From positions 254,009 through 318,008 of the forward strand of contig SGBD01000002.1 of assembly GCA_004195035.1 (NCBI GenBank): a stretch of DNA of 64,000 bases, given 5' to 3'. A model generated the notes under the pieces. That model did no database searches and was not told the DNA's origin. It saw only the letters and a list, made by a program, of their open reading frames with translations. The stretch comes from Candidatus Acidulodesulfobacterium ferriphilum. GTDB lineage: Bacteria; SZUA-79; Acidulodesulfobacterales; Acidulodesulfobacteraceae. The position numbers and the translations under genes were made by a program. How positions within the stretch are numbered: the stretch's first letter is position 1; the number at the start of each line of letters is the position of its first letter. Positions 26,874 through 47,933 of the stretch are shown here, piece by piece.

Positions 26874-29800
26874 TTAATCAACCTTTAAAACCTTAATAGC
26901 CGCCAGGGCAAGTTTATGCAATAATTCCGGCGGCATCTCTTTGTTTCCGCTTATCGAACCTTCATAAACAATGGATTGAACCGCTTCCTCATTAAAACAA
27001 TTCTCATTTTCGCTTATATAAATTAGTTTTTCGATAAGCCGGCGCTCCCAGTATTTTTTTATATGGCCGGTTATTTCATTAATTGCCGAATCTTCGGGAT
27101 AAGGGGCAAAAATTAAAACAAGATTATAGAACATCCTTATAATTTCACCGCCGTAGGCCGTTTTATTCTTATCATTGCTTAAGCATTGAAGCGGTTCATC
27201 GGCATTATATCCATCGCTTGCATATAATTTATTATCGCCGTATTTTTTTACGGACACGGCTGTTACCTTATATTCCGGCGTCTCCGTTGACCAGTCGGAA
27301 TAGTCGCTGGTAAGCACATTTGTTTTGTATTCCGGAAAATGAAAAGTCGTGGCGACAACCCCCTGTTTCACCCTGCCGCTTATTTTTGCCGTTAGAGTAA
27401 CTTTTCCCTTTCTGCTTTCTATCAGCGCCGTATCGCCATCGTTAATATTTAAGTCTTTTGCATCTTCCCTGCTTATTTCAAGAATATCTCTATTATACCA
27501 TACGCTGTTTTCGGTTCTTCTCGTGTTATTGGAACAATTATACTGAAAAAGGTTTCTTACGGTCGTGAGAATATAAGGGTATTTTTTAGACACGCTATTT
27601 TTTGAACCTATATAAGAGGTTATAATAAACCTTCCTTTCCCTCTTATAAATTTGTCTTTATGAAGAATTTCGGCGCCAAACGGGTTGTATTCGGTGCACG
27701 GCCATTGCAATGAACCGAGCCTGTTAAGTTTATCATAGTTGACTCCCGAAAAAGAAGGAGTTAATTTTGCTATTTCATCCATTATTTCGGAAGGATTGGA
27801 ATAATTCATTTTATATCCAAGCGCATTTGAGAGGTCTATTAATATCTCCCAGTCGGGCTTACCCGCAACAGGCTCCAAAATCTTCCTGACTCTTTGAATC
27901 CTTCTTTCCCAATTTGTAAAAGTGCCTTCTTTTTCAAGGAATGAAGAGCCCGGCAGTATAACATGGGCATAATCCGCGGTTGCATTCATAAATATATCAT
28001 GAACCGCAACAAACTCCATCGATTTTAACGACGCTATTATTCGGTTGGCATCGGGGTCGGTTTGAACTATATCTTCCCCTAAAATATATAATCCTTTAAA
28101 TCTGCCTGCTAAGGCATCCCTTAACATATCGGGAAGCCTCATTCCCTGTTCGGGATCAAGCTTGCTATTCCACTCTTTTTCAAACAATAATCTGACATTA
28201 TCGTCCGATACATGCCTGTAACCGGGAAAAACGGAAGGTTCGGCGCCCATGTCCGCAGCTCCCTGAACATTGTTTTGCCCCCTTAACGGACTGACTCCGA
28301 CCCCTTTGCGTCCGATATTTCCCGTTAGCATCGCAAGGTCGGCTATGGCAAGCACGCCCGTTGAACCCTGTAAGTGCTCGGTTACCCCCAAACCGTAAAA
28401 TATCGATGCGTTTTTGGCTTTTGCATAAAGCCTTGCCGCGCCGGCTATATCTTCCCTATAAACGCCGGTTATGGCTTCCGCGGCTTCCGGGGAGTTGTAA
28501 TCATTCAAGATAAACTCTTCATAAAGATTAAAACTTTCAATGTCGCATCTTTCTTTTATAAAATCGGCATTTAACAAACCTTCCTTAATTATGGTGTAAG
28601 CTAAAGCATTTAAAAGAGAAACATTTGTCCCGGGCAAGGGTCTTAAATGGTATTTAGCCGATATGTGGGGGGATTTCGCAACTTCGGTTTCACGCGGGTC
28701 GATAACTATTAAATCAGCGCCGTTCCTTGCTGTTTTTCTTATAAATGAACCTACTACAGGGTGGGCTTCGGTAGGATTAGCCCCTATTATCATTATACAG
28801 TCCGAATCAAACATGGAACCGAGATCCTGCGTTCCCGCCCCCGCGCCGAATGCAACGCCGAGAGCATATCCTGTCGGCTGATGGCAAACCCTTGCGCATG
28901 TATCTATGTTATTGTTGCCAAAACCGGTCCTTATAAGTTTTTGCATCAGATAATTTTCTTCGTTCGTGCATCTTGAGGAGCTGATGCCGCCTACAGCTTT
29001 AACGCCGTATTTGGATTGTATTTCTTTAAATTTTTTTGCGGTAAAAAAGACGGCTTCTTCCCATGAAACTTCTTTAAACGGTTCATTTAAACTATTCCGT
29101 AAAAGAGGAGTTTTTAACCTGTCGCCGCTCTGAACATAACCCCATGCAAAGCGGCCTTTAACGCATGAATGACCATAATTTGACAGACTTTTATCGTTGG
29201 GCATCATTCTTACTATATTGTTCCCCTTATATTCAACATTAAACGAACATCCCACGCCGCAATACCCGCAAGTGGTCGTGGCGGCTGAATCTGCTTTGCC
29301 GTGATTAACAACGGTTTTTTCGATTAAAGCCCCTGTCGGACATGTTTTAACGCATGCGCCGCAGGAAACGCATTCGGAATTTAAAAAATTATCTCCAGCT
29401 TTTATAACAGAATCAAAACCTCTTTTAATAACGGTTAAGGCAAAATTTCCCTGGACTTCCCTGCATGCCCTTACGCATCTTGCGCATACGATGCACCTTG
29501 AAGGGTCAAACCTGAAGTAGGGATTTGATTCATCGACAGCGGCCAACAGATGGCTTTTACCTCTATACCTGATACTCCTTAAACCAAAATAAGCAGCCCA
29601 ATTCTGTAAATCGCAGATCAGGTTTTTCGAACATGTAAGGCAATCGTTAGGGTGGTCGGAAAGATAAAGTTCCATGAGCGTTCGTTTCAATGAAAAAAGT
29701 TTATCGCTATATGTCTTTATCTTCATTCCATTACTTGCGTAAACCGAACAGGCGTAAACATATCCTTTTTTACCTATCATTTCAACTGCGCAAAGCCTGC

Positions 29801-29942
29801 ATGCGCCGTAAGGCAGAAGTTCTTTTGATGCGCAAAGGGACGGTATTATTATGCCTGCATCTTTTGCGGCATTTAATATTGTGGTATTTTCGCAGACCGT
29901 TAAATTTTTTCCGTCTATTTCAATATTAACCGTGTTAATCAT
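26874..29942 (-). CDS. fdsA: NAD-dependent formate dehydrogenase catalytic subunit fused to an FdsD-like domain
   Basis: This 1022-residue molybdenum (or tungsten) enzyme carries, in order: a [2Fe-2S] domain (C37, C48, C51, C65), a His-ligated [4Fe-4S] site (H97, C101, C104, C110), a two-cluster ferredoxin domain (C150-C160 and C191-C201), and the catalytic domain with its own [4Fe-4S] cluster (C225, C228, C232, C260). The metal ligand is Cys353 in CARVCH, not selenocysteine. Residues of about 915-1022 read like the separate delta subunit FdsD (FAPYPEDSAINEITGHIKKY, WERRL). It oxidises formate to CO2 and passes electrons to FdsB/FdsG. It ends the dedA-fdsG-fdsB-fdsA gene run. No fdhD is seen here. 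Confidence 0.93.
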   Translation of the reverse strand: MINTVNIEIDGKNLTVCENTTILNAAKDAGIIIPSLCASKELLPYGACRLCAVEMIGKKGYVYACSVYASNGMKIKTYSDKLFSLKRTLMELYLSDHPNDCLTCSKNLICDLQNWAAYFGLRSIRYRGKSHLLAAVDESNPYFRFDPSRCIVCARCVRACREVQGNFALTVIKRGFDSVIKAGDNFLNSECVSCGACVKTCPTGALIEKTVVNHGKADSAATTTCGYCGVGCSFNVEYKGNNIVRMMPNDKSLSNYGHSCVKGRFAWGYVQSGDRLKTPLLRNSLNEPFKEVSWEEAVFFTAKKFKEIQSKYGVKAVGGISSSRCTNEENYLMQKLIRTGFGNNNIDTCARVCHQPTGYALGVAFGAGAGTQDLGSMFDSDCIMIIGANPTEAHPVVGSFIRKTARNGADLIVIDPRETEVAKSPHISAKYHLRPLPGTNVSLLNALAYTIIKEGLLNADFIKERCDIESFNLYEEFILNDYNSPEAAEAITGVYREDIAGAARLYAKAKNASIFYGLGVTEHLQGSTGVLAIADLAMLTGNIGRKGVGVSPLRGQNNVQGAADMGAEPSVFPGYRHVSDDNVRLLFEKEWNSKLDPEQGMRLPDMLRDALAGRFKGLYILGEDIVQTDPDANRIIASLKSMEFVAVHDIFMNATADYAHVILPGSSFLEKEGTFTNWERRIQRVRKILEPVAGKPDWEILIDLSNALGYKMNYSNPSEIMDEIAKLTPSFSGVNYDKLNRLGSLQWPCTEYNPFGAEILHKDKFIRGKGRFIITSYIGSKNSVSKKYPYILTTVRNLFQYNCSNNTRRTENSVWYNRDILEISREDAKDLNINDGDTALIESRKGKVTLTAKISGRVKQGVVATTFHFPEYKTNVLTSDYSDWSTETPEYKVTAVSVKKYGDNKLYASDGYNADEPLQCLSNDKNKTAYGGEIIRMFYNLVLIFAPYPEDSAINEITGHIKKYWERRLIEKLIYISENENCFNEEAVQSIVYEGSISGNKEMPPELLHKLALAAIKVLKVD

Positions 29943-37502: not shown

Positions 37503-38222
37503 TTACTTTTTTAATACGGAAACTTTTAAATTAACATTATCTTTTATGAAAGAGATAAAATCCCGTAATCCGTTATTTTCGATATTTTCCGCTTTCGAAT
37601 TATTTTTGCACGATGTTTCGAAAATCACCAAATCCTTATTTATAGACAAAGCATTTTCCCTTATTTTAGCAATATCGGAATCCAGAACGGACAAAAGGTC
37701 AATTTTATTTATAACCATGACTTTAGACTTATAAAAAGCGGCAGGATATTTTAAGGGTTTGTCATCGCCTTCCGTTATCGAAAGAACCACAACCTTTATA
37801 TCCTCGCCAAGATTAAACGCCGTGGGGCAAACAAGATTTCCTACATTTTCTATTAATATTATATCCGCATCCTTTATGTCTAAATTATTAAGCGAGCCGT
37901 TCACCATTTTTGCATCTAGATGACATGTCCCGTTTGTAATAATTTGATATGCAGGAACATTTAACTTATCTATTCGTTTTTTATCTAAATCCGTCTCGAC
38001 ATCCCCCTCTATAACTGCTACCTTAAAGCCGTCCGATTTTAAAATAGGAACTATAGATTCCAGCAACGATGTCTTGCCCGAACCCGGAGAGCTCAAAAAA
38101 TTCATAACAAAAGCCTTTTTGAATAATGCTTTATTTTTATTTGCGATAATATCATTTGTTTCTAAAGCATTCCTCTGAATCAATAATGACCTGCCTGCGC
38201 GCCTTTGACTCGAATTTAACAT
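37503..38222 (-). CDS. hypB: Hydrogenase nickel-incorporation GTPase HypB
   Basis: This 239-residue GTPase shows the P-loop SSPGSGKTSLLE at about residues 43-54, EGDVETDLD, the nickel-site-like NGTCHLDAKMV, ILIENVGNLVCP and the NKIDLL specificity motif. It delivers nickel to the hydrogenase large subunit together with HypA. It lacks the N-terminal His-rich or CCxxC nickel-store segment found in some species. The hypA gene lies 102 bp upstream on the same strand, and the structural genes are divergent from hypA. Confidence 0.95.
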   Translation of the reverse strand: MLNSSQRRAGRSLLIQRNALETNDIIANKNKALFKKAFVMNFLSSPGSGKTSLLESIVPILKSDGFKVAVIEGDVETDLDKKRIDKLNVPAYQIITNGTCHLDAKMVNGSLNNLDIKDADIILIENVGNLVCPTAFNLGEDIKVVVLSITEGDDKPLKYPAAFYKSKVMVINKIDLLSVLDSDIAKIRENALSINKDLVIFETSCKNNSKAENIENNGLRDFISFIKDNVNLKVSVLKK

Positions 38223-38765: not shown

Positions 38766-40091
38766 ATGGGAAATGGCAAAAGAATCCGCGCCGCAAAAAA
38801 TGAAAACGATAATCCTTTTTCAATGCCCGAAGAGGATAATAATTTCAATTTCAAATGGGACCCCTTAAGGAATATCGCGGACGACCCTGACGAGGTTTTA
38901 AAAAGGGTTGATGAACGGTTAGACAGCCTTGAAAAAGAGCGCTTTAGCGGCAAAAAAGATAAAGACGGCAACCTTGAAAATATCTTTAGTCTCCATGGAG
39001 TAACAAGAAGGGACTTTATCAAATGGAGTGCTTTCTTAACATCGGCCATGATGCTCCCTTATATATTCAGTCCCAGAGTAGCGAGAGCCGCCAATATACT
39101 GACAAGAACCCCTTTTATATGGCTTGATATGGCGGATTGTATGGGAAACACCGAAGCCTTTATCAGAACCGCCCACCCCACGCCCGCCGAAATAATTCTT
39201 AACTATGTCAGCGTGGATTATATGGAATCCATAATGGCTCCCGCCGGTTATCAGGCGGAAGCAAGACGAATAGAAACCGTCAAAAAGCATAAAGGAAAAT
39301 ATATTTTAGTAGTGGAAGGTGCAATCCCTACAGGTCTTAACGGAAAATTTCTCACTATCGGAGCAAAAGGAGATTCTGGTCTAAAAATTGCCAAAGAAAC
39401 ATCCAAAGATGCAGGCATTATAGTTGCGATAGGCAATTGCGCTTCTTACGGAGGCATACCCGCCGCACGCCCAAATCCTACTTCGGCCGTCGGTCTCAGC
39501 TCCGTTACAAACAGGCAGGTTATAAATATCCCCGCCTGTCCGGCAAACCCGGTAAATGTCGTAGGCACTTTAGTGGAATATATATTGGTGGGAAAAGCCC
39601 CTCAGCTTGACAGCCTTGGAAGACCGCTGTGGGCATACTCCGGAAGGCTTCACGATAACTGTTATAGAAGGGGGCATTTCGAAGCGGGCGAATATGTGAG
39701 GCAATGGGGCGACGAGGGGGCAAAAAAACAATATTGCCTATATATGATGGGATGCAAAGGGCCTTTTACATGGAATAACTGCACCGTGGTGGAATATAAT
39801 CAGGATATAAGCTTTCCTATGAGAGCGGGACACGGTTGTATCGGCTGTTCTCAGCCCGCATTCTGGGATAGAATGACCCCGTTTGAGAAGCCCAATGCGG
39901 ATGCAAAAATTATACTCCCCATGGTCGAAGCTACCGCCGATGAATTCGGCGTGGCTCTTCTCGGAGCGGCCGGCGCCGGAATTGCGGCTCATGCTATATA
40001 CACGGGGGTTAAAAAGAAAAGAGAATCCAAAAAAACATCTGAAAAGAAAAAAAGTGATTCAGATAAAAATGATGACAATAATGACAAGTAA
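38766..40091 (+). CDS. [NiFe] hydrogenase small subunit, Tat-exported, atypical proximal site
   Basis: This 441-residue protein starts behind a strong AGGAGG. About 80 charged residues precede the twin-arginine motif VTRRDFIKW (R81, R82). Then come a hydrophobic Tat core and the iron-sulfur part. The first proximal ligands read DCMGNTE, with Cys125 present but Asn128 where CxxC would have the second Cys. The rest is regular: GNCASYGGI, ACPANP, HDNCYRRGHFE, CLYMMGCKGP, NNC and GHGCIGCSQPAFWD. A C-terminal hydrophobic helix (about 400-420) anchors it in the membrane. It belongs to the group 1 uptake type, facing the periplasm. Confidence 0.95.
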   Translation: MGNGKRIRAAKNENDNPFSMPEEDNNFNFKWDPLRNIADDPDEVLKRVDERLDSLEKERFSGKKDKDGNLENIFSLHGVTRRDFIKWSAFLTSAMMLPYIFSPRVARAANILTRTPFIWLDMADCMGNTEAFIRTAHPTPAEIILNYVSVDYMESIMAPAGYQAEARRIETVKKHKGKYILVVEGAIPTGLNGKFLTIGAKGDSGLKIAKETSKDAGIIVAIGNCASYGGIPAARPNPTSAVGLSSVTNRQVINIPACPANPVNVVGTLVEYILVGKAPQLDSLGRPLWAYSGRLHDNCYRRGHFEAGEYVRQWGDEGAKKQYCLYMMGCKGPFTWNNCTVVEYNQDISFPMRAGHGCIGCSQPAFWDRMTPFEKPNADAKIILPMVEATADEFGVALLGAAGAGIAAHAIYTGVKKKRESKKTSEKKKSDSDKNDDNNDK

Positions 40092-40184: not shown

Positions 40185-41870
40185 ATGGCAACAAAGATTA
40201 TAGTCGATCCGATAACCAGAATAGAGGGACACCTGCGAATAGAAGCGATTCTTAACGGCAATGAAATAACCGAAGCATATTCATCGGGCACTCTATTCAG
40301 GGGGATAGAACTTATACTTAACGGAAGAGCTCCCGAAGACGCAGGGCTTTTTGCCCAAAGAATTTGCGGGGTCTGTACCTATGCCCACTATGAAGCCGCC
40401 ACATGGGCGGTTGAAAACGCTCTCGGCATACATCCTCCAAAAAATGCCAGAATTGCCCGCAATATATTAAAAGGCGCACAAATGGTTCAGGACCATTTAG
40501 TCCATTTTTACCAGCTTGCCGGTTTGGACTGGGTCGATATAGTGTCTGCGCTTAAAGCCGACCCGAAAAAAACGATGGATCTGGCGTATGCCTATACAAA
40601 GACGCCTTATAACGCGAGTTTAGCAAGATTCGAAGAAGTAAAGGCAAGGCTCAACAACTTTGTCAAGTCGGGCCAACTCGGGCCTTTTGCGGGCGGCTAT
40701 TGGGGAAACCCGTCTTACAAACTTCCCCCCGAAGGAAACCTTTTGATAGCCTCGCACTATTTAGACAATCTTAATATTTTAAGAATACCCGCCCAAATCA
40801 TAGCGATTTTAGGAGCAAAAGACCCTCATCCTCAAACCTGCGTGGTCGGCGGCATTTCATCTATCGCGGACATTATTAACCCTCAAAGAATGGATGATAT
40901 TTTATTCAGGATAGGAAAAATTACCGACTTCATCAATAATGCCTACATACCGGATTTGCTGACCGCGGCTGAGTTTTATAAAGAAGAAGCTCTTCAGGGC
41001 ATCGGCGGCGGACTTAAAAACTATCTTTCGTACGGCGCATTTCCTCAAACGGATGATGAAAATCCGGATGATTATTATTTAATGAGGGGTATTATATTCG
41101 ATAGAGACCTCGGCAAGGTTCACGGTTTGGATGAAAAAAAGATAACGGAGTTTGTTACGCATTCATGGTATAAATACCCGAATGAAAAGGTAGGGCTTAA
41201 CCCGTCCGTCGGAATCACGGACCCTGATTATACAGGCTTAAACAAAGACGGAAGCCTTAAAGAAGACGAGAAATACAGCTGGCTTAAATCTCCGAGATAT
41301 GAAAATAAGGCTATGGAAGTTGGACCTCTTGCGAGAACGTTGGTTGCATATGCCAAAGGAAATAAAACTATAAAATCTTTAGTGGATTACGTCCTAAAAA
41401 CATCGGGGTTGCCCGTAACCGCGCTATTTTCCACTCTTGGAAGAACGGCGGCAAGAGGAATAGAAGCGAAATACGTAGCCGACGCATTAGAATCATGGAC
41501 ATTAGAACTGATTAAAAATGCGGCGATTGACCAGACAAGCTGGACAAAGTATGATATGCCTTCGAAAGAAATTACGGGAATCGGACTCGACGAGGCTCCA
41601 AGGGGGGCTTTAGGCCACTGGGTAAGAATAAAAAATAAGCAGATAGCCCATTATCAAATAGTAGTGCCATCGACATGGAACGCTTCTCCGAGAGACGCAT
41701 TTAACAACCCGGGGGCTTATGAAGCATCTTTAGTCGGCGTTAAGCTTGCAAACGCTTCCGAGCCTCTTGAAATTTTGCGGACGGTTCATTCGTTTGACCC
41801 CTGTTTAGCCTGTGCCGTCCATATAATAGACCCGAAAACAAATGAAATAAAAAAATTTAAAATTAGTTAA
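40185..41870 (+). CDS. [NiFe] hydrogenase large subunit
   Basis: This 561-residue catalytic subunit binds the Ni-Fe(CN)2CO centre through RICGVC (Cys61, Cys64, with H68) and DPCLACAVH (Cys540, Cys543, H546). The 15 residues after His546 are the C-terminal peptide that the maturation protease removes after nickel insertion. Length and motifs match group 1 respiratory H2-uptake enzymes. GGAGG precedes the start. Lacking its own signal peptide, it would be carried out by the Tat signal of the small subunit. Confidence 0.97.
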   Translation: MATKIIVDPITRIEGHLRIEAILNGNEITEAYSSGTLFRGIELILNGRAPEDAGLFAQRICGVCTYAHYEAATWAVENALGIHPPKNARIARNILKGAQMVQDHLVHFYQLAGLDWVDIVSALKADPKKTMDLAYAYTKTPYNASLARFEEVKARLNNFVKSGQLGPFAGGYWGNPSYKLPPEGNLLIASHYLDNLNILRIPAQIIAILGAKDPHPQTCVVGGISSIADIINPQRMDDILFRIGKITDFINNAYIPDLLTAAEFYKEEALQGIGGGLKNYLSYGAFPQTDDENPDDYYLMRGIIFDRDLGKVHGLDEKKITEFVTHSWYKYPNEKVGLNPSVGITDPDYTGLNKDGSLKEDEKYSWLKSPRYENKAMEVGPLARTLVAYAKGNKTIKSLVDYVLKTSGLPVTALFSTLGRTAARGIEAKYVADALESWTLELIKNAAIDQTSWTKYDMPSKEITGIGLDEAPRGALGHWVRIKNKQIAHYQIVVPSTWNASPRDAFNNPGAYEASLVGVKLANASEPLEILRTVHSFDPCLACAVHIIDPKTNEIKKFKIS

Positions 41871-41915
41871 TTTTCATGTTTTTATATTTAATTAACTTTT
41901 AAAATGGGGTTAATT

Positions 41916-42680
41916 ATGGAAAATAAAGAAAAAAAATACGGCGATATACAATTAGTCCACAGAATGACGGTTATAAAAAGAATTATACACTGGTCATTTT
42001 TTTTAGCTATCATTAATAACATCATTACGGGCTTTTATATAGCCTATCCATTTCTTATATTTGGAAAAACCCCTGCGCAATCCGATTCCCTTTCAAAAGG
42101 GATTATTAATTCAGGAGAAACATATCAGGCATTCATAATGACATGGATGAGGGAATTCCATTTTATCGGCGCTGTTATTATAGATGTTATTTTTATCGTC
42201 TGGCTGTATCTGGCTTTTTTTTCGTGGAAAGAGCCTCTTTATAAAAGCTTTATACCTTTCGGGGATAAAATAGCGGAGGCGGGGAGAATGGTTAAGCACT
42301 ACTTCACGCTCAAAGACAAGCCTGAAACAACCCGATATCAAGACCCTTTAAATGCCGTAATATTCACTATTTTTCATCTGCTTATTTTACTTCAAATGGT
42401 AACCGGATTTCAGATGTATGTGGCTTCGTTTACCGGAACTTCGGCCGTAGGCGGTTGGTGGCCATGGCTTATGCATTTTACGACCGATTGGACGCTTGTC
42501 GTATTCGGCGGACTGACGGGCGTTACGCTTGTTCATCTTTTTACAATGTGGCTGATTATAATATTTATAGTTTATCATATTTATATAGAGGTTTGGCGTT
42601 CGGTAATGTGGAAAGAAGGGGATATCCTGATACCGTTCGGAGGATATAAATATATCAGAAATAAAACGGAAACGGACTGA
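41916..42680 (+). CDS. Hydrogenase cytochrome b subunit
   Basis: This protein of about 254 residues has four membrane segments and belongs to the HyaC/HupC di-haem cytochrome b family. Candidate haem-binding histidines include IIHWSFFLAI, MREFHFIGAV, IFHLLILLQ and IIFIVYHIYIEVW. It takes electrons from the small subunit into the quinone pool. An ATG at 41904 is possible, but its GGGG spans the ribosome-site position for the ATG at 41916, which I prefer. It lies between the large-subunit and protease genes on the same strand. Confidence 0.92.
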   Translation: MENKEKKYGDIQLVHRMTVIKRIIHWSFFLAIINNIITGFYIAYPFLIFGKTPAQSDSLSKGIINSGETYQAFIMTWMREFHFIGAVIIDVIFIVWLYLAFFSWKEPLYKSFIPFGDKIAEAGRMVKHYFTLKDKPETTRYQDPLNAVIFTIFHLLILLQMVTGFQMYVASFTGTSAVGGWWPWLMHFTTDWTLVVFGGLTGVTLVHLFTMWLIIIFIVYHIYIEVWRSVMWKEGDILIPFGGYKYIRNKTETD

Positions 42681-42701: not shown

Positions 42702-43211
42702 ATGACTGGAATTATAGGAATCGGAAACCTGCTCTTAAAAGACGAAGGATTCGGGATTCACTTTATCGATTATCTTAGAAAAAAATATATTTTCGACTTA
42801 AATCTGAGAATAATTGACGGAAGCACAATGGGCTACGGGCTTTTGGACGACATATTTAACCTTGACAATATTATTGTCATAGATGCCCTTAAAACAGATG
42901 AAAACCCGGGAAGCATATTTAAATTCGACAGCAAAAACATCCCGGTTGATTTAATGAAAAAAACAGCCCATGATGTTGAATTTATCGATGTAATAACTAT
43001 GTGCAGCCTTCAGGGGCATAACCCGAAAATAACAATTTTTGCAATATCTCCAGAAGACATAAGTAATGTTGGAATGGATATTTCATTCCCTTTAAAAAAT
43101 GCGATTCCAAGGCTTGAATCTCTCGTTCTGGAAGAGATAAAGCCGTTTGGCATAGAATGGAGCATAAATCCTGAATATCGCAAAATTGCCGAATTTAAAC
43201 CTTTAATTTAA
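42702..43211 (+). CDS. hyaD: Hydrogenase maturation endopeptidase
   Basis: This 169-residue HyaD/HybD-type protease begins with IIGIGNLLLKDEGFGIH, which includes the nickel-sensing Glu, and shows IIDGSTMGYGLLD and IVIDALK with its conserved Asp. It clips the C-terminal peptide of the large subunit once nickel is in place. It follows the cytochrome gene by 21 bp and ends the structural operon. The hyp genes come next on the opposite strand. Confidence 0.94.
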   Translation: MTGIIGIGNLLLKDEGFGIHFIDYLRKKYIFDLNLRIIDGSTMGYGLLDDIFNLDNIIVIDALKTDENPGSIFKFDSKNIPVDLMKKTAHDVEFIDVITMCSLQGHNPKITIFAISPEDISNVGMDISFPLKNAIPRLESLVLEEIKPFGIEWSINPEYRKIAEFKPLI

Positions 43212-43218
43212 ACCGGAA

Positions 43219-45735
43219 TTAATCTATCAGTCCGCCGTAAACCGCCTGACCGAATGAAATACCGCCGTCATTGGGGGGGATTTTTTTATTAAAAAAGATA
43301 TTAAATCCGCTTTCTTTTAAAATTTTACCGCTTTTATCCCTCAAAAAAGCATTTTGGAATACCCCGCCGCTCATACAGACATTTTTGCAGCCTATTCTTA
43401 AAGCAATATCCCTTATAATGAGGGCAAGGGTATTTATAAATCTTTCTGCAATATTATTATATAATTCTGCATGTAATTCTGAATTATTATTATTAATAAT
43501 AATTTTTATAATCTGAAGCAACATAGGGTTATAATCGATTATAAACAGGCCGTTTATTTTATCATAATCCAAGGCATATTCAAAAAAATCGGATTTTTCT
43601 ATCCCGTAATCCAATGAGCTCCGCTGATTTTCAATTTCCTCTTCCTCGCTGCCGCATAAATTTTCTAAATACACTGCCGCCTCTCCCTCATAAAAAATGT
43701 CCCCTTTAAAGCCGCATAAACACGAAACGGCATCAAAAATTCTTCCGCAAGAAGATGTATATGGAGAATTAATTCCACTCTCCCACATCTTAAAAAATAT
43801 GTTTATATTTTCTAGGGAAAGACCTGTTAAATTCGAAATACCGTCAAATTTAAAATAGTCGCCCATGCCGTTAAAATTATAATTTTTGGCAGATTCATTT
43901 CTATTTTTAAAAAAGAGACCAAATAGAAGGCTCAAAAGAACCCTTTGCGGGGATTTAACGGCTTTATCTCCACCAAGAAGCCTGAATTTTTTGAAACTCC
44001 CCACCCTCTTTAAATTCATATAGTTTCCCTTAAAAAATTCCCCTCCCCAAATACTTACATCGCTTCCGTCATCCCCGTAACCTGTTCCGTCAAATGCCGC
44101 GCCAAAAACTTCATCATTCAACCCCAATCCGTTTTCGGCCATACAGGAAATAATATGAGCCCTGTGATGTTGCAAGGATAAACACTTTATACCTTCTTTT
44201 TCAGCTTTTTCTTTAACCCACCTTGTATTTTCATAACCGGGATGGCTGTCGCAAACTATCATATCAGGTTTAAAATTATAAAACCTTTCAAAATCTTCCA
44301 CATTTTCGGTAAAATTGACGAAGCTGTCAATACCGTCCAAGTCCCCGTTATGCTGGCTTAATATAACCGCTCCCCCGTTATCGTCGTCTCTGCCTTTATA
44401 TGCTATTGCAAATGTGTTTTTAAGAAAAGAACCCGCCGCAAAAACATTTCTTTTTAAGTTAAAAGGTAATTTAACGGGATCTGGAACATAGCCTCTCGAA
44501 CGCCTGATAAAAACCGGATCTTCACCTATCATTTTTATAACGGAATCATCGCATCTTCTTAAAATATCCCTGTTATGTATTAAAAAACCGTCCGCGATAC
44601 CTTTCAGTTTAAAAATAGCCTCCCCGTTATCTTTTATTATCGGTTCTCCGCCTATGTTTGCCGATGTAGCTACTAAAGGTTTCCCAAATAATTCTAAAAT
44701 AATATAATGAACCGGCGCGTACGGCAAAAATACTCCTATATCCTTCAGTCCGCAGTTTACATAATAAGATAAAGCGCCTTTGTCTTTCAGCAGGCAGACA
44801 GGTCTTTCTTTTGATGTCATTAAAGCCGTAGAAATATCATCTGCATAAGCATATTTTAATATCTCGTTTATATCTTTAAACATAACGGCAAACGGTTTCT
44901 TCGGCCTATTTTTTCTCTCCCTTAACTTTTTAACCGCTTTATCGTTTGCGGCGTCAGCCATTAAATGAAAACCGCCTATACCTTTAACACAGGCAATCCC
45001 GCCATTTTTTAATAGTTCGACCAATGATTTTATGGCATCTAAGCCTTTTGCGTTATTTATATTGCCCGCCGGCAAGCAGGATAATAATTCCGGCGGCTTA
45101 CAATTCGGCTTACTTAAAACAAATTCAACCCCGGGTCCGCATGAAAAACATCCGTTAGGTTCCGCATGGAACCTCCTGTTTAACGGATTTTTATATTCGC
45201 CTTCGCATGCGGGACACATTTTAAACTTATCCATGGCGGTAGATGCCCTGTCGTAAGGCATCCCCTTAATTATCGTAAATCTTGGGCCGCAATCGGTGCA
45301 GTTTATGAAAGGATAAAGGTATCTCCTGTCCGAAGGATTTAAAAGCTCCTTTAAACATTCATCGCATATTGCAATATCAGGAGAAGCTATTAAATTGAAA
45401 TTGCCTTTACCGTTATTGTTCGTATAATTAAGCGGTTTATCCGATTCTTTAATATTAAAATTATTATAAAAAACGGGGGGATTAAAATTGACGGTTTTTG
45501 TATTTATAGCCGCCAGAGGGGGTTTTTCTAAATCTAAAAATTTTATAAAATTTGCTAAATCGTTTTCCTTTCCTTCGGCATCGATTGCAACCCCTTCCAT
45601 ATCATTTAAAACATAACCTTTAATGCAATATTTTTCTGCGAGCCTGAAAACAAAAGGCCTAAAACCCACTCCCTGAACCCTGCCTGATAATTTAATTACA
45701 GCCCTTTTAATCTTTTTATTATTTTTCATCAGCAA
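43219..45735 (-). CDS. hypF: Carbamoyltransferase HypF
   Basis: This 838-residue protein has the full HypF order. An acylphosphatase domain (SGRVQGVGFRPFVFRLA, about 15-31) is followed by zinc-finger pairs (CDECLKELL, CTDCGPR, CPACEGEY, CFSCGPG), a YrdC domain (KGIGGFHLMADA) and a Kae1-like domain with QHHRAH and AFDGTGYGDDG. It makes the carbamoyl-AMP from which the CN ligands of the active-site iron derive, and passes the carbamoyl to HypE. Its start overlaps the hypE stop by 7 bp. The gene converges with hyaD. Confidence 0.96.
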   Translation of the reverse strand: MLMKNNKKIKRAVIKLSGRVQGVGFRPFVFRLAEKYCIKGYVLNDMEGVAIDAEGKENDLANFIKFLDLEKPPLAAINTKTVNFNPPVFYNNFNIKESDKPLNYTNNNGKGNFNLIASPDIAICDECLKELLNPSDRRYLYPFINCTDCGPRFTIIKGMPYDRASTAMDKFKMCPACEGEYKNPLNRRFHAEPNGCFSCGPGVEFVLSKPNCKPPELLSCLPAGNINNAKGLDAIKSLVELLKNGGIACVKGIGGFHLMADAANDKAVKKLRERKNRPKKPFAVMFKDINEILKYAYADDISTALMTSKERPVCLLKDKGALSYYVNCGLKDIGVFLPYAPVHYIILELFGKPLVATSANIGGEPIIKDNGEAIFKLKGIADGFLIHNRDILRRCDDSVIKMIGEDPVFIRRSRGYVPDPVKLPFNLKRNVFAAGSFLKNTFAIAYKGRDDDNGGAVILSQHNGDLDGIDSFVNFTENVEDFERFYNFKPDMIVCDSHPGYENTRWVKEKAEKEGIKCLSLQHHRAHIISCMAENGLGLNDEVFGAAFDGTGYGDDGSDVSIWGGEFFKGNYMNLKRVGSFKKFRLLGGDKAVKSPQRVLLSLLFGLFFKNRNESAKNYNFNGMGDYFKFDGISNLTGLSLENINIFFKMWESGINSPYTSSCGRIFDAVSCLCGFKGDIFYEGEAAVYLENLCGSEEEEIENQRSSLDYGIEKSDFFEYALDYDKINGLFIIDYNPMLLQIIKIIINNNNSELHAELYNNIAERFINTLALIIRDIALRIGCKNVCMSGGVFQNAFLRDKSGKILKESGFNIFFNKKIPPNDGGISFGQAVYGGLID

Positions 45736-46802
45736 ATTCGCGGCAAAAGTTCGCCCGACGGATAGTCCAATAATCTATTAACGCCGTAAATGCCTTTTAA
45801 AATAACCTTCCCTTTTAAATCCGGGCTATTATTAATATCATTATTGTTTTCGACAACTCCTATCACCCTTGCATTTTTACCGAGCGGGTGGGATTTAAGA
45901 ATATCCAAGGCCTTCTTTGCATGCTCAGGCTTGACCGCAAAAACCGCCCTCCCCTCGCATGCAAGTTGATACGGTTCAAAACCCAAAAGCTCGCAAAAAC
46001 CCCTCACGCCGTCCCTTACCGGAATCTTATCTTCTTCTATGTAAATAGAAACACCCGCGGTTAAAGCCCACTCGTTAAGAACCGCGGCAAGCCCGCCTCT
46101 CGTGGCATCTCTTATAGCGCTTACGATAACCCCCTGTTTTAAGGCCGTATCTATCATATCCCATAAAGAAGCGCAGTCGCTTTCCGTTTCCACATCCATA
46201 TCTATGCCGTCTCTTTGCGACATAATAGCGGCTCCATGGTCACCTACTTCGCCGGAAACAACTATGACATCCCCATCCGCTATATTATAGACGGAAATAT
46301 TTTCATATAAAACCTCGCCTATTCCGCTTGTATTTATAAAAATACCGTCCGCTTTTCCTCTTGGGACGACCTTTGTATCTCCCGTTACAATCTTGACTCC
46401 GCTTTTTTTTGCCTCTTGAGCCGCCGAATTTATAATCTTTTTTAAATCTCCTGTCAAAAATCCTTCTTCTATTATAAGTCCTAAACTTAAAAAAAGCGGT
46501 TTCGCCCCCATAACGGAAAGGTCGTTTACCGTTCCCGCAACGGACAATTTTCCTATATCGCCGCCATTAAAAAAGATTGGGCTCACCGTGAAGCTATCGG
46601 TAGTAAAGGCTATTTTTTGCGGAGAAGTTAAAATCGCGGCATCTTCCAGCAATTTTATTTGATTTTTTGCATTATCGCTATTTAAACCTGGTCCGTAAAG
46701 TTCCCTAAAAAGTATATTAACGATTAATTGGGATGTCTCTTTTCCGCCGCCGCCGTGGGAAAGCAAAATTTTATCGCTATCGTTTAATTTATATGAATTC
46801 AT
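45729..46802 (-). CDS. hypE: Carbamoyl dehydratase HypE
   Basis: This 357-residue protein of the PurM/SelD fold has SHGGGGKETSQLI, TTDSFTVSPIFF, GTVNDLSVMGAKP, TGDTKVVPRG and ATRGGLAAVLNEWA. It ends in PRIC, placing the carbamoyl-accepting Cys357 at the very C-terminus as required. It dehydrates the thiocarbamate to thiocyanate and hands CN to the HypCD complex. It is coupled to hypF by overlap and follows hypD by 24 bp. Confidence 0.96.
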   Translation of the reverse strand: MNSYKLNDSDKILLSHGGGGKETSQLIVNILFRELYGPGLNSDNAKNQIKLLEDAAILTSPQKIAFTTDSFTVSPIFFNGGDIGKLSVAGTVNDLSVMGAKPLFLSLGLIIEEGFLTGDLKKIINSAAQEAKKSGVKIVTGDTKVVPRGKADGIFINTSGIGEVLYENISVYNIADGDVIVVSGEVGDHGAAIMSQRDGIDMDVETESDCASLWDMIDTALKQGVIVSAIRDATRGGLAAVLNEWALTAGVSIYIEEDKIPVRDGVRGFCELLGFEPYQLACEGRAVFAVKPEHAKKALDILKSHPLGKNARVIGVVENNNDINNSPDLKGKVILKGIYGVNRLLDYPSGELLPRIC

Positions 46803-46826: not shown

Positions 46827-47933
46827 TTAAAAATTACGATATTTATAATATGCGGCGCACGCCCCTTCAAAAGAAACCATACACGCCCCAATTGGATTTT
46901 CGGGAGTACAAACTCCGTCAAACAGGGGGCAATCGTCCGGCTTCAGTCTTCCTTTAAGTATTTCCCCGCATTTACAAGCCGCATTTTCTTTGGCATCATG
47001 GGTCGATTTCCCTAATTTATCCGCAAAAACATATTCGGCATCAAAATCTTTAAAGTTATCTTTTAATTTCAGCCCGCTTTTCGGAATATTGCCGAACCCT
47101 CTCCATTCGAACCCGTCCCGAACCTCAAAATATTTATCGACTAAGTCCTGCGCCTTTTTATTTCCCTTTTCTTTAACCGCTCTTTTATATGCAATTTCCA
47201 CCGCTGGATTATCGTTGTTAATCTGTCTGACTATCAAAAGAATTGCGCTTAAAATGTCATAAGGTTCAAATCCCGCAATAACCGCCGATTTTTTATATTT
47301 TAGCGGAATATCCGCATAAATACCGCTTCCGGTAACAACGCTTACATGTCCGGGACAGATAAAACCGTCTATTAAATTGTCGTTGGAATCTAAAATAGCA
47401 TTTATAGGCGGAGGCACAAGAACATGATTAATATAAAATAATATATTTTCGATTTTTTTCGCTATCACTTCTTCGATAAGAGCTGCCGTCATCGGCGCTG
47501 TCGTTTCGAACCCTATTGCAAAAAAAATAATCTTTTTATCCTTATTGCTTTTATCCGCCGCTATTTTTATAATATCGAGCGGGGAATATATCATCCTTAC
47601 ATCTCTTCCTTTAGCCCTCTCTTTTATGAGGGAACTATTTGTTCCGGGAACCCGCATCATATCGCCGTAAGCCGCAAGTATAACATCGGGCAAACCCGCA
47701 ATTTCTATAGCCTTATCGATTCTTTTTATCGGCATAACGCAAACGGGACAACCGGGGCCGTGAAGAAAGCTTATCTTGTCTTTAAGAAGGGTATTCAGTC
47801 CGTATTTCATAATGGAATGGGTATGCCCGCCGCATATTTCCATTATATTGATCGTTTTTTTGGCTTCGATGCTTATCAGAGAGGTTAGCCGTTCTATATC
47901 GCCTTGTTGCTTAAAAGAGGAATATATGCTCAT
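46827..47933 (-). CDS. hypD: Hydrogenase iron-centre assembly protein HypD
   Basis: This 368-residue protein contains the HypD signatures MEICGGHTHSIMKYGL, GPGCPVCV, FFAIGFETTAP, and the C-terminal cluster ligands ACKCGEILKG and CPLFDGVC with GACMVSFEG. It carries a [4Fe-4S] cluster and a redox thiol pair and builds the Fe(CN)2CO unit with HypC. It is read after hypC and before hypE in one run on the minus strand. Confidence 0.96.
   Translation of the reverse strand: MSIYSSFKQQGDIERLTSLISIEAKKTINIMEICGGHTHSIMKYGLNTLLKDKISFLHGPGCPVCVMPIKRIDKAIEIAGLPDVILAAYGDMMRVPGTNSSLIKERAKGRDVRMIYSPLDIIKIAADKSNKDKKIIFFAIGFETTAPMTAALIEEVIAKKIENILFYINHVLVPPPINAILDSNDNLIDGFICPGHVSVVTGSGIYADIPLKYKKSAVIAGFEPYDILSAILLIVRQINNDNPAVEIAYKRAVKEKGNKKAQDLVDKYFEVRDGFEWRGFGNIPKSGLKLKDNFKDFDAEYVFADKLGKSTHDAKENAACKCGEILKGRLKPDDCPLFDGVCTPENPIGACMVSFEGACAAYYKYRNF

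Follow-up and report, generated by a model that had tools for sequence, protein, structure and literature searches.

Hydrogenases in which one cysteine ligand of the proximal iron-sulfur cluster is replaced by Asn or Asp have been described before. HupS of mesophilic verrucomicrobial methanotrophs has Asn for one of the four proximal Cys, group 1f enzymes of Roseiflexus, Geobacter and Frankia carry Asn or Asp at the proximal site, group 2a enzymes likewise have Asn there, and the literature treats such three-Cys forms as regular members (PMC5364354). Position 2 of the proximal motif is changed from Cys to Asp in G. metalloreducens and from Cys to Asn in N. punctiforme, and engineered C81D and C81N forms of the Alteromonas hydrogenase are functional (PMC4070099). 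The clusters reported for these enzymes vary: in Huc, a group 2a enzyme of Mycobacterium smegmatis, cryo-EM and EPR show all three clusters to be [3Fe-4S] (PMC10017518), isolated N. punctiforme HupS is listed in a review as having two [4Fe-4S] and one [3Fe-4S] (PMC4463661), and for group 1h, ligation of a proximal [4Fe-4S] by the Asp has been described (PMC7174314).

The window, a stretch of 64,000 nucleotides from Candidatus Acidulodesulfobacterium ferriphilum, encodes on its forward strand a [NiFe] hydrogenase small subunit of 441 amino acids (38766..40091, ATG start). The protein scores 397.2 bits against TIGR00391, above the curated cut-off of 179.5, matches PF14720 and PF01058, and has group 1 enzymes as its nearest PDB matches, in keeping with its initial annotation as a group 1 small subunit. 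It has a long N-terminal extension, a Tat motif (RRDFIKW, residues 81–87; 39006..39026, forward strand) and a C-terminal anchor helix. The extension ahead of the Tat motif (38766–39005) is unusually long at about 80 amino acids, is modelled as helices, and is in part common to the Sulfurovum relative described below. An AlphaFold2 model of the small subunit, which is cofactor-free and has a mean pLDDT of 67.8, includes the C-terminal helix and shows the group 1 fold by structure comparison (Z up to 22.5), and confirms nothing beyond that fold.

The forward-strand codons tgt atg gga aac (39138..39149) specify C125-M-G-N128, with aac for Asn128 at 39147–39149, so that the reported Asn for the second Cys of CxGC is correct. 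By alignment, the other proximal ligands are C125, C225 (in GNCAS; 39438..39440, forward strand) and C258 (in PACPANP; 39537..39539, forward strand), the medial ligands are C339, C358 and C361, and the distal ligands are H296, C299, C324 and C330. There are nine Cys in all (125, 225, 258, 299, 324, 330, 339, 358 and 361), and as these and His296 are all used at other ligand positions, no Cys is left over for position 128. The earlier statement that all other cluster ligands are in place thus stands, and a spare Cys nearby that would replace N128 is ruled out in the window protein; the site departs from the classical four-Cys arrangement in that N128 takes the fourth place. The two extra Cys of the group 1d [4Fe-3S] cluster are absent from the window protein, which has Gly127 and Gly230, and Cys at 230 is found in 13 of 50 CxGC rows. 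Group 1d-type oxygen tolerance was considered and rejected for the window protein on the grounds that it lacks the extra Cys, and with this six-Cys motif absent oxygen tolerance cannot be inferred from the sequence. The changed redox behaviour that the initial annotation expected of Asn128 is plausible.

Downstream of the small subunit lie, in order and all on the forward strand, genes for the large subunit (40185..41870; PF00374, 671 bits; motifs RICGVC and SFDPCLACAVH), a TIGR02125-like b-type cytochrome subunit (41904..42680; PF01292; 114.8 bits against TIGR02125, slightly below the cut-off of 121.5) and a HyaD/HybD-type maturation protease (42702..43211; PF01750, TIGR00072). The L1 region of the large subunit reads CGVCTYAHYEAAT, as compared with the common CGVCTTVHA form. 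Maturation genes flank the operon on both sides on the opposite strand: a HypB-like GTPase (37503..38222; PF02492), HypF (43219..45735; HypF domains in Pfam), HypD (46827..47933; PF01924, 492 bits) and, between the latter two, a HypE-like protein (45729..46802; PF00586 and PF02769). The locus thus has the group 1 combination of a Tat signal, a partner large subunit carrying the L1 and L2 motifs, and cytochrome b. The Tat motif, C-terminal helix and cytochrome b fit a membrane-bound, outward-facing enzyme, with uptake as its presumed catalytic direction. It is the sole clear [NiFe] hydrogenase detected in the genome, which also carries dsrA and cytochrome bd.

A protein search of 30 genomes of the Acididesulfobacter/SZUA-79 lineage recovered the small-subunit gene in 22, with Candidatus Acididesulfobacter and SZUA-79 among the named relatives. 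All 22 copies (the window and 21 others) have Asn in the position-128 column, encoded by AAT in 18 and AAC in four, and these come from independent assemblies. The uniform Asn and its two codons exclude the possibility, raised earlier, that codon 128 reflects faulty sequencing or assembly; we found no evidence in favor of such an error and regard it as vanishingly improbable.

The residue is also widespread outside this phylum. We aligned hydrogenase small subunits at this position, much as the initial annotation had proposed, and found N in 97, C in 68 and D in 49 of 214 rows, some genomes being counted twice; no other residue occurs in the column. Loci from four other phyla were collected with a profile of relatives and the best-scoring copies were counted. 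These gave N 9 and C 21 for the phylum of the Acidobacteria locus, N 16, C 12 and D 2 for that of the Anaerolineae locus, D 17, N 2 and C 11 for that of the Thermosulfurimonas locus, and D 18 and N 12 for that of the Nitrospirae locus, although the profile is rich in Asn forms and these best-match shares are not unbiased frequencies. By itself the protein is unsurprising. A large proportion of the group 1 uptake enzymes carry Asn or Asp here. To the question raised earlier, whether the variant is known in another group 1 subclass, the answer is yes, since it is published for 1f (PMC5364354); the observation is correct and of a kind already on record. Its modest novelty lies in a CxGN lineage that spans a phylum, is of uncertain subgroup and does not fall clearly within group 1f.

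Residues around the cluster also differ between the two types. In most non-Cys rows, position 121 is E or D, position 124 is D and position 260 is not Pro, whereas CxGC rows have H at 121, E at 124 and P at 260, albeit with E121 and D124 in a few of them. The window protein has D121, D124 and A260, a pattern common to Sulfurovum and the Thermotogota-type branch. The correlation of these second-sphere residues with the non-Cys state partly reflects ancestry. We note that column 213 holds a Cys in L042, in L163 and in most of the 1f rows, and that within 1f this Cys covaries with Asn or Asp at the proximal site; it is also present in some CxGC proteins, and the window protein has Ser.

The window protein resembles group 1f in having a non-Cys residue (Asn or Asp) at proximal position 2, the same other ligands, about 40–50% identity and common second-sphere residues, but the two form separate clades in both the small-subunit and large-subunit trees. 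In the small-subunit tree (125 rows), a quick tree without bootstrap in which the Anaeromyxobacter and Acidobacteriota-type rows were labelled 1f by inference, the window clade joins Sulfurovum on a starred branch (97), apart from the 1f N/D clade. The labels N and D require nine and ten changes on this tree, at least eight of each on starred branches, so Asn and Asp interchange readily. The large-subunit tree, also quick and without bootstrap, places the window clade with CxGC Desulfovibrio-type rows (starred, 95). We compared constrained trees for groups that were named after viewing a tree: one clade uniting every non-Cys row is not rejected for the small subunit (p-AU 0.514; 116 rows, without 1h), nor is a window plus 1f clade for the large subunit (p-AU 0.107), but a large-subunit clade of window, 1f and the Thermotogota/Acidobacteriota CxGN branch is rejected (p-AU 0.00084). 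The large subunit thus rejects, and the small subunit allows, one common origin for the non-Cys forms of group 1, which implies, as far as such trees can be read, either that these forms arose twice or more within group 1 or that lineages exchanged small subunits.

In both trees the window lineage has as its sister a plasmid hydrogenase of Sulfurovum mangrovi (L073), which has CAGN, about 50% identity to the window protein, a similarly long N-terminal extension and the same gene order. Unlike the window gene, the Sulfurovum copy (L073 4893–6148) is unannotated, and in that record its frame is split by a frameshift. Adjoining it is a second, Huc-related small subunit (L073 2120–3013) that is also of the CxGN type (CNGN).

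Two enzymes with solved structures have a non-Cys residue in this column. HucS (PDB 7UUR, 7UTD) has CSGN in the same column by sequence alignment, and the window protein shares this CxGN motif of Huc-like 2a enzymes. Huc is a distant relative and differs at the distal site, where the window protein keeps His and three Cys, a conserved set that would argue against a [3Fe-4S] cluster there. Huc is not known to have Tat export or a cytochrome b anchor. HofK of Cupriavidus (group 1h, PDB 5AA5) aligns with CDGD (GLGCDGDS), in agreement with the comparison to actinobacterial-type enzymes made in the initial annotation. Like the window protein it is non-Cys at this column, but it has Asp, as do the other 1h rows, in the CxGD form that the window protein lacks, and its sequence similarity is far lower.

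The locus probably encodes a working [NiFe] hydrogenase for H2 uptake, exported by Tat and bound to the membrane, with a proximal cluster held by C125, C225 and C258 and with Asn128 at the fourth position. This reading draws on CMGN lacking a spare Cys, its conservation in 22 of 22 copies, the operon and hyp genes, the group 1 fold of the model and the repeated N/D interchange on the tree, as well as on Huc, in which CSGN occurs with all clusters [3Fe-4S] (PMC10017518), and the active C81N variant (PMC4070099). Electrons from H2 would pass from the Ni-Fe site to the three-Cys proximal cluster, on to the medial [3Fe-4S] and the His-ligated distal [4Fe-4S], and then through cytochrome b to quinone. 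Loss of a thiolate probably lifts the potential of the proximal cluster and biases the enzyme toward H2 oxidation. As the clusters reported for Huc and HupS disagree, a three-Cys cluster can be predicted from CxGN, whereas its nuclearity cannot. By analogy with Huc, which shares CxGN, there is about an even chance that the proximal cluster is [3Fe-4S], although N. punctiforme HupS also has Asn and is reported with two [4Fe-4S] (PMC4463661) and Huc is only distantly related; for a [4Fe-4S] whose fourth iron is weakly ligated by solvent or Asn we put the chance a little short of even. The literature searched contained no spectroscopic study of a CxGN enzyme from group 1. Resolving these conflicting reports on CxGN nuclearity, [3Fe-4S] in Huc and [4Fe-4S] in cyanobacterial HupS, would reveal how H2 oxidation is tuned without the known six-Cys solution.

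Direct ligation of the fourth iron of a proximal [4Fe-4S] by Asn128, in the manner of the 1h Asp, is possible but rather doubtful. The Asp of HofK in the same column, the description of the 1h Asp as a [4Fe-4S] ligand (PMC7174314), the apparent interchangeability of N and D over at least eight changes each on starred branches, and the two [4Fe-4S] reported for N. punctiforme HupS (PMC4463661) all speak for it, but uncharged Asn binds iron poorly, and Huc has [3Fe-4S] with the same CxGN (PMC10017518). It is improbable that Asn128 reflects neutral drift at a ligand site tolerant of change, even though engineered substitutions here keep activity (PMC4070099) and the state changed several times on the trees: N, D and C are the only residues in the column and N is fixed phylum-wide, so the site is constrained.

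An adaptive role for Asn128 in H2 scavenging, whether with high affinity or with oxygen tolerance, seems equally improbable. Groups 1h, 2a and 1f, which have Asp or Asn here, include oxidizers of atmospheric H2 (PMC7174314; PMC6776052), and cytochrome bd is encoded in the genome; however, dsrA suggests sulfur-compound reduction and frequently anoxic conditions, the protein lacks the six-Cys 1d motif, and the proximal motif is common in several phyla, its link with affinity or tolerance being a correlation only. A broader scenario, which we consider unlikely, is that CxGN and the accompanying second-sphere changes arose convergently in separate group 1 lineages (1f; the window phylum with Sulfurovum; and the Thermotogota/Acidobacteriota branch beside 1d), and that selection on function thereby produced a three-Cys proximal cluster of higher potential for H2 scavenging.

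Elsewhere in the window, a formate-dehydrogenase-like protein is encoded at 26874–29942; its C-terminal part matches FdsD, which is usually a separate delta subunit, and the gene is followed by NuoF- and NuoE-like genes.
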